Of a stretch of DNA of 64,000 bases, positions 13,182 to 48,918 are shown piece by piece. Both the position numbers and the translations under genes were made by a program. Each line of letters opens with the position of its first letter. Position 1 is the stretch's first letter. The DNA lies in assembly GCF_008727865.1 (NCBI RefSeq), contig NZ_VTWU01000001.1:372001-436000 (forward strand), given 5' to 3'. Source of the DNA: Hymenobacter busanensis. GTDB lineage: Bacteria > Bacteroidota > Bacteroidia > Cytophagales > Hymenobacteraceae. Under the pieces are notes generated by a model. It did not search any database, was not told the origin of the DNA, and saw nothing but the letters and a program-made list of their open reading frames with translations.

Positions 13182-13269
13182 AGAGGGGTGTCCGAGTGGT
13201 CGAAGGAGCACGCCTGGAAAGTGTGTATGGGTCAAAAGCTCATCGTGGGTTCGAATCCCATCCCCTCTG
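13182..13269 (+). tRNA. tRNA-Ser (anticodon GGA)
   Basis: 88-nt class II tRNA. The acceptor stem AGAGGGG (13182-13188) pairs with CCCCTCT (13262-13268), with discriminator G at 13269. The anticodon loop CTGGAAA has anticodon GGA at 13216-13218 and stem CACGC/GTGTG. A long variable arm follows (about 13224-13243), as expected for serine, then the T-loop TTCGAAT. CCA is not encoded. A TACTTTG box lies about 20 bases upstream. Confidence 0.97.
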
Positions 13270-41147: not shown

Positions 41148-41240
41148 ACGAAAAGCAGCGCCCGGATGATACACGGCTGGCCGCCCAACGAGACCGGCCG
41201 CCGCTGCAAGGGTTGCAACGACGGCCGGTTTCATGTTCGG

Positions 41241-41693
41241 TGATGCGCCTGTAAGCCGGGTTTTGTCCGCGCCCGAAAGCGCGGCCCCACCATTTATCTA
41301 GGCCCGTACTCGCGCGCGGGCTCCATCAGCCTACCCGCCGACACCAGACGAGCCGCCTGGTGCAACGCCTTGCGGCCTTGCCTGCCGGCCTATTTGGCCT
41401 TTCAACCCCTGAGGTTTACCCAGCCGGAACGGTCGCCCGCCCGCTGGTGCGCTCTTACCGCACCTTTTCACCCTTACCAAGTTTGGTGCTTAGGGGATAG
41501 TGCTTGGTGCATAGAACGAGCTAAGCACTAGGCACCATGTTCTAAGCACTAAAACCTGGCGGTAGTTTTCTGTGGCACTGGCTGTCCGGCGGCCGTTCCC
41601 AGCCGCCGTCCTTCCCGTTAGGAAGCAGGGTGCTCTGCGTTGCCCGGACTTTCCTCTCCGCTCCGAAGAGCGCAGCGGTGGGGCGGCGCATCA
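41241..41693 (-). ncRNA. rnpB: RNase P RNA (type A)
   Basis: About 453 nt on the minus strand. The universal core is clear: the 5' part carries GAGGAAAGTCCGGGC, the middle AAGGGTGAAAAGGTGCGGTAAGAGCGCACC, and the 3' part ACAAAACCCGGCTTACAGGCGC. P1 is closed by TGATGCGCC (41693-41685) and GGCGCATCA (41249-41241). A consensus TACCTTTG box (41702-41709) is placed to start transcription just before P1. A region that is usually a short variable hairpin instead contains a repeat-derived extension (41486-41549). RNase P RNA cleaves the 5' leader of tRNA precursors. Confidence 0.96.
41486..41549 (-). repeat. Repeat-derived helix extension inside rnpB
   Basis: GTGCTTAG (41486-41493) pairs with CTAAGCAC (41542-41549), and TAGTGCTT (41498-41505) pairs with AAGCACTA (41523-41530), making two nested 8-bp helices. 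The 12-mer AAGCACTAGGCA (41523-41534) recurs at 17307-17318. Confidence 0.65.
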
Positions 41694-41701
41694 CTTGTGG
41701 G

Positions 41702-44299: not shown

Positions 44300-46157
44300 T
44301 GTCTTGCGGGTAACTGTCGGGCACCAGCGTGCTGCCCAGCTTCACCTGCTTCAGGGCCTTGGCGGTGGCCACCGGCACCGTTACGGCCGTGGCGCCCGAT
44401 TCCCACACGCCCACCGAGCGGTGGATTTTCTCCGTCGTGTTGTCGGCGTAGGTAATGGTGAGGTCGACGGGCACGGGTTTGCTGCCTTTGGCCTGCACCA
44501 CCACGCTGTAGCCGGCGCCGTCCTTGGTCACACTTTGGATGGCCAGGTCGGGGTAGCCGTCGTCGAAAAACCAGCGCTGCCAAAACCAGTTCAGGTTGTG
44601 GCCCGCGCCGGCATTCATGCTGTTGAAGAAGTCGAAGGGCATGGGGTGCTTGCCCTGCCAGGTGCTGATGTAGTGGTGCAGGGCTTTGGTAAACAGCTCG
44701 TCGCCCAGCAAATCCTTCACGTAGAGGTACCCGAAGGCGGGCTTGGGGTAGGAGTTGAGGAAGAACGCGCGGTCGGTTTGCTGGGTGCTGAGTGTGGTAA
44801 TGGGCACGTCGATTTCGGTGGCGGCCAGCTGGGCGTAGGGCGCCACGCCGTAGTTGTCGTCGAGCTTGGGGTCGATGATGCTGGAAATTAGCCACTCGCC
44901 GATGGTGGCCCAACCCTCGTCCATCCAGCCGTACTTGGTTTCGTTGGTGCCCAGGTAGAAGGGAAACATGGTGTGAAACACCTCGTGGTCGGTGAGGGTA
45001 ATGGCGTCCTCGCGCGACGAGACGGGGTTGTCGTTCACCATCATCGGGTACTCCATCTGGTCGAGGCCGTCGAATACGGTGATGTGCGGGTAGGGGAAGG
45101 GCCACTTCGGAAAGGTGTAGCTCATGGCCTCCACCGTTTTGCGGGCGAAGTGCACCACCTCGGCGTAGTCCTGATGCTGGGTGTTGTACACGGCATCCAC
45201 GCGGGTGCGGCGCTTGGTGGCCGGGTCCACCACCAGGCTGGTGGCCTGCCACACGTAGTGGTCGGCGGTGGCGAAGGCAAAATCGGTGACGTTGCGGGCC
45301 TCGAAGTGCCAGGTGTTTTGGGCGTTGGCCGCCGTGATGTCGCGGCGCTGCAAATCGGCGGTTTCGATGACGTTGACGATGCCGTCTTTCTTCTCCGCGT
45401 CGCGCAGGCGCTTCACATACTTCTTCGTGAGCACCTGGTCGGCATTGGTCAGGTCGCCGGTGGCCCACACCACAAAGTCCTTGGGCACGGTAATGTCGGC
45501 CGAGAAGTTGGCGAAGTCGTTGTAGAACTCCTGGCTGCCGTTGTATGCAAATTTGTTCCACCCGTCGATGTCGTCGTAGACGGCAATGCGCGGGAAGAAG
45601 TAGGCCACGAAATCGGCCCCCGGCTCAATCTCGCCGGTGCGCATGTGGGAGCCTTGGTTGAGCGTGTAGGAGTAGGAAACCGACACCTGCGCCGTGCCCT
45701 TGGCTGCAATGGGCTGGGCCAGCGGCACCACCATGTTGGTGGCCTCGATGCCGAACTTATCGGCCTCGATTACCTGCCCGTTGACCCGCAGCTGCTCGAT
45801 TCTCACGCCTTCGCCCACGTCCTCGGGCTTGATGCGGCTGGCTCGCGGCGCGCCCTGCTGGTAGTAGTTGGCGTAGAGCTTAAACCAAAGCTGGGGCAGC
45901 GCGTCGGGGCTGTTGTTGCGGTAGGCAATGTCCACTGTGCCCTGCACGCGGCGCGTGGTTGGGTCGAAGTTCACTTTCAGCACGTAGTCCGCTGCGTTCT
46001 GCCAGTAATTGGGGCCGGGCTGGCCACTGGCGGCGCGGGTGCCCTTGGCGTAGGTGGCCTGCAGGTTGCGCGGCACGGGCAGCGGCGCGGGTTGCTGCGC
46101 GAAGCTCGGAAGGGTGAGCAGGGAAAGGAGAGAGGCGGCGAGGTAAGAGCAATTCAT
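44280..46157 (-). CDS. M1 family metallopeptidase (aminopeptidase-like)
   Basis: 625 residues. A signal peptide (MNCSYLAASLLSLLTLPSFAQ) is followed by an N-terminal beta domain. The gluzincin site is DHEVFHTMFPFYLGTNETKYGWMDEGWA: HExxH, then exactly 18 residues, then Glu. The exopeptidase loop reads GLDQMEYP instead of GAMEN, as in many Bacteroidota relatives. The C-terminal beta domain ends VKLGSTLVPDSYPQDNVWTGQ. It trims peptides outside the cytoplasm. A palindromic repeat (46173-46270) replaces a normal upstream leader. The esterase gene overlaps its 3' end. Confidence 0.9.
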   Translation of the reverse strand: MNCSYLAASLLSLLTLPSFAQQPAPLPVPRNLQATYAKGTRAASGQPGPNYWQNAADYVLKVNFDPTTRRVQGTVDIAYRNNSPDALPQLWFKLYANYYQQGAPRASRIKPEDVGEGVRIEQLRVNGQVIEADKFGIEATNMVVPLAQPIAAKGTAQVSVSYSYTLNQGSHMRTGEIEPGADFVAYFFPRIAVYDDIDGWNKFAYNGSQEFYNDFANFSADITVPKDFVVWATGDLTNADQVLTKKYVKRLRDAEKKDGIVNVIETADLQRRDITAANAQNTWHFEARNVTDFAFATADHYVWQATSLVVDPATKRRTRVDAVYNTQHQDYAEVVHFARKTVEAMSYTFPKWPFPYPHITVFDGLDQMEYPMMVNDNPVSSREDAITLTDHEVFHTMFPFYLGTNETKYGWMDEGWATIGEWLISSIIDPKLDDNYGVAPYAQLAATEIDVPITTLSTQQTDRAFFLNSYPKPAFGYLYVKDLLGDELFTKALHHYISTWQGKHPMPFDFFNSMNAGAGHNLNWFWQRWFFDDGYPDLAIQSVTKDGAGYSVVVQAKGSKPVPVDLTITYADNTTEKIHRSVGVWESGATAVTVPVATAKALKQVKLGSTLVPDSYPQDNVWTGQ

Positions 46158-46172: not shown

Positions 46173-46270
46173 GTCATGCTGAGCTTGTCGAAGCATCTTT
46201 ACCGCTTCAGCTGATAGTGAAAATGCTGTCTGGCGGCGTGGTAGAGATGCTTCGCGGAGCTCAGCATGAC
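46173..46270. repeat. Palindromic repeat element, copy 1
   Basis: 98 bp bounded by GTCATGCTGAGC and its exact complement GCTCAGCATGAC. Internal arms are GAAGCATCTTTACCGCTTC and GGTAGAGATGCTTCGCGG. It lies in the gap between the Smr gene stop and the M1 start. Copy 2 is nested in the MITE at 54755-54843. No GAGCGTG ends or target duplication flank this copy. Confidence 0.8.
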
Positions 46271-46294
46271 GGACGATGTATAGAACAAAGCTGG

Positions 46295-47452
46295 TTACTT
46301 CAGCCGCACGAGCGTAGCGCCGTAGCCGAACTTCTCCTTGCGCGCTTCCTCGAAGAACTTGATGTCGCGGTTGCGGCTCAGGCGCTTGTGCAGCTCTTTG
46401 CGCAGCGTACCGTTGCCGGTCCCGTGGATGAAGATGATTTCGTGCATGCCGGTGGCCAGGGCGCGGCTCAGGGCGTCTTCGAACGCTGCCACCTGCAACT
46501 CCAAAATGGCCGTGTTGGTCAGGCCCTCGGTACCGCCTTCGGGCTGCAGGGCGTCCAAGTGCAGGTCTACCTCGTGGTTGGGCGCCACAAGGGCCTTGGC
46601 CGGTTCGGGTTTGGGCGCGGGCACCACCGAGCGGGCGTCGCCGCGCAGCTTTTCGGCCAGTTGGTCGCGCAGCTGGCTGGGGCTGATGGTGGGTACTTCC
46701 TTGTCCTTCGGTTTGGGCGCGGCAGCTTCCGATTCTTCGGTGGGCACTGCCAGCGGCGCGGCCGGCTTTTCGTCGAGTTGAAACAGGTAGGCCTCGCGCT
46801 GCAGCACCGGGGCCTCGCGGCGGCTGGAGTAAAACGTGTTGGCCTTGAAAGTGAGGCGCTTGAGCAGCACGTCGTAGAGCACCGGCGAGTTGGGCTGCGA
46901 GGGCAGCAGCTGCACGATGGTAGCCGGCCACTGCTCGAAGTCCTTGAGGTGGCGGTGGCCCAGCGGCTGGCTGGCGGTTTTGGGCTCCAACTTGCCCGCG
47001 TTCAGGGCGCGGTACTGGCCGCCGCTGCGCTCCTCGCCAAAAGTGTAGAGCACCTCGGCATCGGTGTTGTTGATCAGGTGCACCGCCATCAGCTCCGAGG
47101 TTTGCATCAGCAGCGCCAGGTACAGGCCTTTGGGTGCGGGCGGCAGCGGGGCCGGCTTCTCGGCTTTGGGCGTGCCACCGGCCGCCGGGGCTGCTTGCGG
47201 AGCCACCGCCGCGCCGGGTTTGCCCGCGCTTTTGCCGCTGGGCTTGCCCGCCGGCTTGGGCACCTGCGAGGGCGCCAGCTGGCTGCCACCGAACGCCTTG
47301 AATTCTTCGGCGGCCACCACCACCAGCTCGCGGCGCAGCACCGGCACCGGAAAGTCGTCGATGGTAACTTCCACCAGGTCGTGGTCGAGGATGCGGGTGA
47401 CAATACCTTCTTCGCGGCCCGACATCAGGCGCACTCTATCTCCAATATTCAT
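46295..47452 (-). CDS. DUF2027 / Smr domain protein
   Basis: 385 residues. The N-terminus MNIGDRVRLMSGREEGIVTRILDHDLVEVTIDDF resembles a KOW or small SH3-like fold. A disordered Ala/Pro/Lys stretch (about 55-105) separates it from a DUF2027 region (LMQTSELMAVHLINNTDAEVLYTFGEE). The C-terminal Smr domain is shown by HEVDLHLDALQPEGG, then EIIFIHGTGNGTLRKELHKRLSRN and FGYGATLVRL. Smr domains are DNA or RNA nicking nucleases in MutS2-like proteins, and the Bacteroidota DUF2027-Smr proteins are of unknown role. It is followed (minus strand) by the palindromic repeat and M1 gene. The tandem array at 47654-47935 lies in its upstream region. Confidence 0.9.
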   Translation of the reverse strand: MNIGDRVRLMSGREEGIVTRILDHDLVEVTIDDFPVPVLRRELVVVAAEEFKAFGGSQLAPSQVPKPAGKPSGKSAGKPGAAVAPQAAPAAGGTPKAEKPAPLPPAPKGLYLALLMQTSELMAVHLINNTDAEVLYTFGEERSGGQYRALNAGKLEPKTASQPLGHRHLKDFEQWPATIVQLLPSQPNSPVLYDVLLKRLTFKANTFYSSRREAPVLQREAYLFQLDEKPAAPLAVPTEESEAAAPKPKDKEVPTISPSQLRDQLAEKLRGDARSVVPAPKPEPAKALVAPNHEVDLHLDALQPEGGTEGLTNTAILELQVAAFEDALSRALATGMHEIIFIHGTGNGTLRKELHKRLSRNRDIKFFEEARKEKFGYGATLVRLK

Positions 47453-47949
47453 GGCAGTAGCAGTTCAGGGTGAGAGGTAATCAATACGCTAATTCGGCCG
47501 ATAGGAAGGCGAGCAGGGCGTAGGGAAGGGGGTAAAGGTCGGCAGAGAACGGCAAACGTTGCCCGCCGGACCCGAAAACAAGCACCTCCGGCCCGCGCCC
47601 CTACCCGGACCGCGCCCGTTTCCACACCGTGAGTCTCCCACGCCTCCCGGTCGGCAAGGCCTTCCAAAATTCCGGAAGTGCGTCGCGGCAAGTCACCAAG
47701 CCCTTCCGGAACTCTGGAAACGCCCCGCGACTTGCCGCGACACGCTTCACCGACTCCGAAAGCATCCCGCGGCAAGTCGCGAAGCCCTTCAGTAAACACA
47801 AAAATGCCTCGCGACTTGCCGCGAAGCCCTTCATGAACTACAAAAACACTTCGCGACAAGTCGCGGGGCACTTCCGGAACTCCAAAAGGGCTTCGCGACT
47901 TGCCGCGACGCACTTCCGGAATTTCGGGAACGAGCCCCGCCGGGGCGTG
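47453..47949. other. 497-bp intergenic region with 42-bp tandem array
   Basis: The first ~200 bases hold the upstream region of the Smr gene and no recognisable promoter box. The rest is the array described separately. Open frames cross it in several frames, but only as shadows of the 14-codon period. Confidence 0.7.
47654..47935. repeat. 42-bp tandem array with alternately inverted palindromic cores
   Basis: Seven units (six full of exactly 42 bp: 47654-47695, 47696-47737, 47738-47779, 47780-47821, 47822-47863, 47864-47905; the seventh partial to about 47935). Each unit ends in a core of the form CGCGACTTGCCGCG or its inverse CGCGGCAAGTCGCG, and the orientation alternates from unit to unit. 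A semi-conserved segment (GCCCTTCCGGAACT-like) follows each core, then a more variable ~12-base stretch. Neighbouring cores can pair with each other, so a transcript would form a chain of hairpins. Confidence 0.85.
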
Positions 47950-48918
47950 CTACCAATACAAGCCGTGCGCCACCAGCCCGCGGCGGCTGTTCAGCTCCAG
48001 TGCCGGCGCGGGCAGGTGGAAGATGCTGAGCGCATAGAACACCCGGCGCAGCGTTTTGCTGCGGGTGGGAATGCGGCGCAAATCCACGTCGAGCGAGAGG
48101 TAGTACTGGCGGTAGGGGCGCAGGCCGGCTTGGCGGCTGGCGTCGGGGTCGTTGTACACCACCTCTTGCGCGCCGTAGCCGAGGGCCGGCTGCAGCCAGC
48201 GGGGCCAGCGCGAGCCGGCCGGCAAAAAGGCGCCGACGTCGGTGCAGAGCCAGTAGGTTTGGCCGTTGTAGTCCTTCAGCAGGCGCTCGGGCACGGTGCT
48301 GCCCAGCACGTTGGGGCGGCGGGCCGCGTAGGGTGTGAGGTGGAAGCTGATTTTGGGCATGATGCGCACCTCGCGCCACGCCAGCTCCTGGGCCAGCACC
48401 CCCGCCGAGCCCAGGAAGTTAGCCGCCAAATCGGTGGCCGAGGCACCGTAGGCCGGGTCGCGGCTGTCGAAGTACTCGATGGGGCTTTGGATCAGAAAAC
48501 CCGCCAGGGAACCGTACCAGATGGCTTTCTTATCGGCCACGCCGGCCCACCGAAGCATGTCTACGGTGCCGCGGCTTTCGTGGAAAGCGCCCCAGAAGTG
48601 CCCGGCTTTGTCGAGCTGCTTCCACTCCGGAAAATCGTTGAACCAGTGCGGAGCCACCTGCCGGCCGGTATACCAGCCCTGGCTGAGGGCAACATACAAG
48701 CCGCCGTAGCCCGCGCCCAGCCCGCCGAGCAGCAGCGGCAAGCGGTGCGGGGGCACTGGTTCGGCCGGCAGCTTAGTTAGTGGCCCGACGACAGGAGCTA
48801 CCTGCGGCCGCACCGTGTCGGGTGGGGCGGCTGCCGGGGCCTGCGCCCAAGTGAAACCACCCCCAAACAGCCCGCCCAGGAGCAGCAAGCAAACGCGCAA
48901 AACCGGGAGTCGAACCAT
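47950..48918 (-). CDS. DUF2279 family protein
   Basis: 322 residues. A signal peptide (ending GGGFTWAQA) is followed by a Pro-rich linker and the DUF2279 part (YVALSQGWYTGRQVAPHWFNDFPEWKQLDKAGHFWGAFHESRG). The WKQxDKxGH element is the characteristic motif of this family (related to YfiM lipoproteins). The C-terminal half is a beta-rich region (RQYYLSLDVDLRRIPTRSKTLRRVFYALSIFHLP) that looks like membrane-associated strands. Function is unknown; the protein is probably in the outer membrane. A TAGCTTTG box (48932-48939) lies 14 bases upstream of the start. Confidence 0.88.
   Translation of the reverse strand: MVRLPVLRVCLLLLGGLFGGGFTWAQAPAAAPPDTVRPQVAPVVGPLTKLPAEPVPPHRLPLLLGGLGAGYGGLYVALSQGWYTGRQVAPHWFNDFPEWKQLDKAGHFWGAFHESRGTVDMLRWAGVADKKAIWYGSLAGFLIQSPIEYFDSRDPAYGASATDLAANFLGSAGVLAQELAWREVRIMPKISFHLTPYAARRPNVLGSTVPERLLKDYNGQTYWLCTDVGAFLPAGSRWPRWLQPALGYGAQEVVYNDPDASRQAGLRPYRQYYLSLDVDLRRIPTRSKTLRRVFYALSIFHLPAPALELNSRRGLVAHGLYW

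Follow-up and report, generated by a model that had tools for sequence, protein, structure and literature searches.

Arrays of palindromic 42-bp units behind genes of Hymenobacter

The intergenic region between a DUF2279 gene and an Smr-domain gene of Hymenobacter busanensis contains an array that belongs to a class of intergenic Hymenobacter arrays, which consist of palindromic 42-bp units at near-fixed spacing, have weakly shared arms and array-specific cores and are located at the 3′ side of genes. The class is apparently undescribed, and no earlier description of palindromic repeats in Hymenobacter or of 42-bp or helically phased arrays was found in the open-licence literature. By analogy with BIME-2, we tentatively read the arrays as phased palindromic sites at transcript ends, probably bound by a protein and partly terminating transcription, a reading that is plausible but that we would not call probable.

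Results

The array between the DUF2279 and Smr genes

The window is a stretch of 64,000 nucleotides of the H. busanensis genome, for which an initial annotation had described a 42-bp repeat array of six full units and a partial seventh between the two genes. Both the array and its location were confirmed (Table 1). The six cores follow each other in exact 42-bp steps with alternating orientation, and the two neighbouring genes are on the minus strand, so that the array follows DUF2279 and precedes Smr in the direction of transcription. It starts about 15-30 bases past the DUF2279 stop codon and ends more than 200 bases short of the Smr start. The six units stood, the seventh core did not: past 47921 only a decayed arm is left.

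Table 1. Array and flanking genes in the window, and further arrays in the H. busanensis genome
Feature	Position	Strand	Remarks
Whole array	47656..47935	.	six 42-bp units and a decayed half-unit on either side
Unit 0	47670..47711	.	core 47684-47697, CGCGGCAAGTCACC, AA orientation, variant
Unit 1	47712..47753	.	core 47726-47739, CGCGACTTGCCGCG, TT orientation
Unit 2	47754..47795	.	core 47768-47781, CGCGGCAAGTCGCG, AA orientation
Unit 3	47796..47837	.	core 47810-47823, CGCGACTTGCCGCG, TT orientation
Unit 4	47838..47879	.	core 47852-47865, CGCGACAAGTCGCG, AA orientation, variant
Unit 5	47880..47921	.	core 47894-47907, CGCGACTTGCCGCG, TT orientation; closest to the DUF2279 stop codon
DUF2279 gene (PF10043)	47950..48918	minus	array directly 3′ of its stop codon
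Smr-domain gene (PF01713)	46295..47452	minus	next gene downstream of the array; specific tie to the array not found
Array L051	C7, about 530 kb		42 bp
Array L118	C7, 76 kb		42 bp
Array L132	C7, 343 kb		42 bp
Array L190	C4, 232 kb		42 bp

Aligned by their cores, the units have a layout of roughly AAA-GC-stem-core-stem-GC-TTT, with A at about -14 and T at about +14 relative to the centre and a second dyad at the unit junctions. A single unit is a palindrome by itself, with a core of 12-14 bp within weak arms. CGCGACTTGCCGCG or its reverse complement is present unchanged in four of the six cores, the first and the fifth being variants, and of the five exact copies of the core four lie inside the array. 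The flipping part is the asymmetric centre, GCAAGT or ACTTGC, which changes orientation at all five adjacent steps; as every unit is palindromic alone, this alternation touches only a few asymmetric bases in the middle of the core. Tandem Repeats Finder scored the 84-bp reading of the array with 222, compared to 107-126 for the 42-bp reading, and identified the array as the sole strong tandem repeat of the window (all else 48 or less).

On the minus strand, from which DUF2279 is transcribed, positions 47669-47934 can be folded as a single long, G-U-rich hairpin of about -190 kcal/mol; the strand bias of this fold was not seen in other arrays. Rfam matches above the gathering score in the window were restricted to the RNase P RNA (class A, 41236-41694, minus) and one tRNA gene (13182-13269, plus), with none in the array. 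An inverted pair of REP-like repeats (TCATGCTGAGCTTGTCGAAGCATC ... GATGCTTCGCGGAGCTCAGCATGA) is found at 46174-46271, between a peptidase-like gene (ending near 46157) and Smr, and this repeat also occurs ahead of an array in another locus (L282).

The spacing of 42 bp is the constant feature

Core pairs were searched across the family, in up to 204 genomes, allowing a spacing of 27-57 bp. For three unrelated core sequences, 34 of 38 pairs were at exactly 42 bp and 37 at 42 or 43 bp: all 11 pairs of the type A core GGGACWWGTCCC, all eight of the type B core GCTTCNNGAAGC (150 genomes) and 15 of 19 of the type D core GAGTACTC had the exact distance, with three type D pairs at 43 bp and one at 27 bp in another genus. 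In an array with the core CCGCCTAGGCGG (genome G002, probably H. jeollabukensis), the steps are 42, 43, 42, 42, 42 and 42 bp. Of the 59 core-to-core distances in 15 arrays, 56 match a multiple of 42 exactly and three are off by one base, despite adjacent spacers being merely 47 % identical. At 10.5 bp per turn, 42 bp corresponds to four turns of B-DNA; it also corresponds to 14 codons.

The same period emerged from the H. busanensis genome, of which about 1.46 of 4.89 Mb were covered by our census. In the intergenic lag spectrum (lags 20-99), 42 and 21 were at the top and 84 came third in a first sample, and 21 and 42 were at the top again in a second one. A detector of chained reverse-complementary 12-mers, open to all periods between 30 and 60 and applied to 0.86 Mb, returned three chains of at least four alternating units, every one at 42 bp, while shuffled sequence gave one chain. 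A palindrome score by itself fails to tell arrays from ordinary DNA, and the reverse-complement distance spectrum is drowned by terminators and coding DNA. Of the four further arrays (Table 1), L132 and L190 have a common core type, whereas L051 and L118 have different cores. Two intergenic direct-repeat arrays with periods of 42 and 21 bp (L193:15420-15700 and L135:5372-5717) show no clear palindromes and may be related to the lattice or unrelated.

The orientation of the centre is not constant. Adjacent units alternate in 7 of 11 type A pairs and 1 of 5 type B pairs, and as only 8 of the 16 orientable pairs outside the window flip, the head-to-head 84-bp alternation had to be given up as the defining trait. 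Strict alternation is a trait of the window array, whereas the spacing is invariant across arrays.

A control stretch beside one orthologous array pair (a fourth comparison besides the three of type A described below, whose downstream control DNA could not be aligned) contained 28 substitutions and zero gaps. A low indel rate by itself may thus keep the length of the spacing, and together with a possible common descent of the lattice it could account for the constant spacing, which counts against a reading of the arrays at the DNA level.

Core types are exchanged between species and loci

Among 204 genomes, the exact two-core pattern of the window is found in this genome alone. A search of the relatives for the array therefore failed for the exact core pair, but it succeeded for the 42-bp lattice, which is present with other cores, including at the same DUF2279-Smr intergenic site. 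In the syntenic loci obtained from 56 relatives, this site carries six units at exactly 42 bp with the core GCTTCTCGAAGC in H. gummosus (L061) and units built around RGGACTTGTCCCG in H. sp. CRA2 (L060, genome G005); in H. sp. 15J16-1T3B the array is absent there. The pattern ACTTG-CAAGT-ACTTG at 42-bp spacing led to arrays with the core CGGGAC(TT or AA)GTCCCG in other Hymenobacter genomes, from which the window core, CGCGAC(TT or AA)GYCGCG, differs by matched changes on both sides. A DNA similarity search with the window array yielded no matches in plasmids or phages and only weak, short ones within the genus; of these, L052 led to a second array.

Altogether, at least seven core types occur on the 42-bp lattice in Hymenobacter. 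A gene without Pfam match, tracked across species, has five of them behind it. Three genomes carry type A there, H. sp. CRA2 carries type B and G002 type G. Type D follows the paralogue of the gene in G002 and the orthologue in G001 (probably H. edaphi), and type F is found in one genome in which the encoded protein shares 85 % identity with that of a type A bearer. In G068, a further, irregular set of palindromes follows the gene. Behind a gene for a YgjP/SprT-like metallopeptidase, type A was found in one genome and type F followed by type A in another, and in L263 types A and D run on in a single register. Two further loci carry palindromes: AAGCTTTAGCTT at 45-47 bp in Hymenobacter sp. H14-R3 (L109:17742), a possible array off the 42-bp lattice, and an array with the core CTTGTGGAGCTCCACAAG at about 42 bp in Hymenobacter sp. 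ASUV-10 (L076:15790-15999), more than 700 bp past the preceding called gene.

Arrays are located behind genes

Most arrays start within a few tens of bases of a stop codon. None of about 30 arrays lies between divergent genes and about half lie between convergent ones, compared to a background of 28 % divergent and 15 % convergent among the intergenic bases of the H. busanensis genome. As orthologous sites are non-independent, each was also counted once; of the about 18 sites left, about 10 are convergent and none is divergent. Genes were called by a hexamer model trained in this analysis, so that gene starts are approximate. Since the same kind of array is located behind many unrelated genes, we rejected the suggested partnership with the Smr nuclease.

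Folding of the arrays and a possible role of the RNA

The strong hairpin potential noted initially was borne out, with fold z-scores of -14.7 (plus strand) and -19.5 (minus strand) for the window array; across arrays, the scores against shuffles range from -1.4 to -19.5 and are mostly below -5. Together with the array starts near stop codons, this fits an explanation at the RNA level, in which tandem bidirectional intrinsic terminators or 3′ UTR hairpins would block read-through or protect the mRNA end and the 42-bp spacing would be merely the length of one hairpin plus linker. We consider this somewhat unlikely. It agrees with the common consensus, in which a GC-rich stem precedes T at +14 to +16, with the better folding of the G-U-rich transcribed strand in the window and with the gene-proximal unit, which is more stable (mean of -19.4 kcal/mol compared to -13.4 for the other units) and forms the strongest hairpin in 9 of 19 arrays. 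Tandem intrinsic terminators share the GC-rich hairpin, the A tract ahead, the T tract behind and the position at gene 3′ ends. However, they require neither identical cores nor fixed, exact 42-bp steps; the inner array units are weak terminators, and a terminator scan of the window array gave 2 matches versus 1.1 expected.

Selection on RNA is expected to produce an excess of G-T over A-C mismatches on the transcribed strand. Over all arrays, mismatched palindrome positions on this strand are G-T in 55 and A-C in 56 cases, so that an RNA wobble signature is absent overall, which argues against the RNA-level explanation. The window array alone has a wobble bias (21 G-T versus 5 A-C), a point against acting at the DNA level; the same bias could be explained by transcription-linked deamination.

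Conservation of the cores

In three comparisons between orthologous arrays of type A, each pair behind the same gene, the cores were identical at 56 of 56, 80 of 84 and 53 of 56 positions, while the spacers were 53, 58 and 45 % identical and the gene 80-85 %. For an orthologous pair of type D, identity was 90 % in the cores, 73 % in the spacers and 92 % in the gene. Unit-specific, non-palindromic core variants, for example CGGGACTTGTGCTG, are retained unit by unit between species. Judged from these sequences, core conservation and the shared variants favour putative sequence recognition over simple homogenisation.

The comparison bears on a neutral or selfish amplification, in which a terminator palindrome duplicates in tandem and template switching between palindromes homogenises the cores and flips the centres, leaving arrays without function. 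The free swapping of core types between species at one site and between loci of one genome, the near-random centre orientation outside the window and the near lack of cores outside arrays (for type A, 18 of 21 sites in 204 genomes are inside arrays) are what it would predict. Nevertheless, we regard it as distinctly unlikely: type A orthologue cores are better conserved than the adjacent gene, the persistence of unit-specific variants indicates that homogenisation is slow, and neutrality would leave the common 42-bp step of unrelated core types unexplained.

Hardly credible is a repeat protein of 14-residue repeats, active or as a remnant, for which 42 is suitably divisible by three and open frames are in excess (29 of 114 versus 8.5 expected from shuffles that disregard repetition): as a general explanation this coding reading is refuted, because the open frames have no consistent phase relative to the core, four arrays are without any open frame and the spacing changes in 15 arrays include one-base but no three-base shifts. 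In agreement with the initial annotation, none of the reading frames is shown as translated.

Comparison with known repeats

REPs are a dispersed high-copy family (often >100) that bears a GTAG or CGTC tag at one end and is often accompanied by a RAYT (IS200/IS605-like) transposase, and BIME-2 binds DNA gyrase (PMC2817692, PMC3733652). Like REP/BIME elements, especially BIME-2, the Hymenobacter arrays are extragenic and consist of short, regularly spaced and sometimes alternating palindromes, with a palindromic unit in the range of 20-40 bp, and lie 3′ of genes in the gaps between tandem or convergent ORFs. In contrast, their cores are low-copy, nearly confined to arrays, untagged and array-specific, and follow a 42-bp lattice almost exactly. 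No conserved GTAG or CGTC tetranucleotide is present in the consensus unit of five core types, and a RAYT-type gene (PF01797) was not found in H. sp. CRA2, which carries three arrays; the two PF01797 members of H. busanensis are on a contig on which no array was found or sought. Based on the array-confined low-copy cores, the missing tag and the RAYT-free genome with three arrays, a dispersed REP was ruled out.

By repeat length and spacer behaviour the array is also not a CRISPR, nor is it a microsatellite, as had been recognised before. Both the arrays and CRISPR have a palindromic repeat that is uniform per array and differs between loci, with regular spacers, but the Hymenobacter repeat has just 12-14 bp instead of about 24-48 bp, and its spacers have A/T arm positions in common and drift gradually between orthologues, whereas CRISPR spacers are unrelated and acquired. 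At the replication origins of plasmids, iterons form replicon-specific direct repeats with a spacing of whole helical turns. The arrays resemble helically phased iterons in having short sites at whole-turn spacing with a specificity that varies (between replicons in the case of iterons), but they are palindromic and lie behind ordinary chromosomal genes.

Discussion

The spacing data, the conservation of the cores, the equal numbers of G-T and A-C mismatches and the placement were counted in favour of arrays that act at the DNA level, for which a nucleoid-binding type of array, as proposed initially, may be considered a live possibility. The array would line up putative palindromic binding sites along the same helix face (42 = 4 x 10.5), similar to the BIME-2 arrays of E. 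coli, and a putative dimeric or bridging protein on it would mark transcription unit ends or buffer them. Its role would be topological or that of a boundary, with termination secondary and the hairpins and short T tracts contributing bidirectional termination. New arrays probably originate from local amplification of a terminator-like palindrome, after which selection on core and spacing would keep them. Two further points speak against action at the DNA level: it is hard to see why seven or more unrelated cores would all be recognised by a single putative protein, and the high hairpin stability, together with a gene-proximal unit that is often a good terminator, fits a role of the RNA.

It is possible, though doubtful, that the arrays represent a distinct bacterial intergenic class, a phased 42-bp lattice at gene ends with an arbitrary palindromic core that is near-identical in each unit and replaced in concert between species. 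If true, concerted core replacement would mean a rapidly switching family of recognition proteins or a mechanism that needs only a match of the units within an array. Intergenic repeats of bacteria are usually interpreted as copies of a single mobile sequence; the Hymenobacter arrays, in which the geometry is conserved and the sequence exchangeable, show the opposite pattern. Orthologous sites with different cores are a natural experiment on whether selection sees the spacing, the palindrome or the sequence, and the arrays would make it possible to test directly whether topology or termination is organised by phased palindromes at the ends of transcripts.
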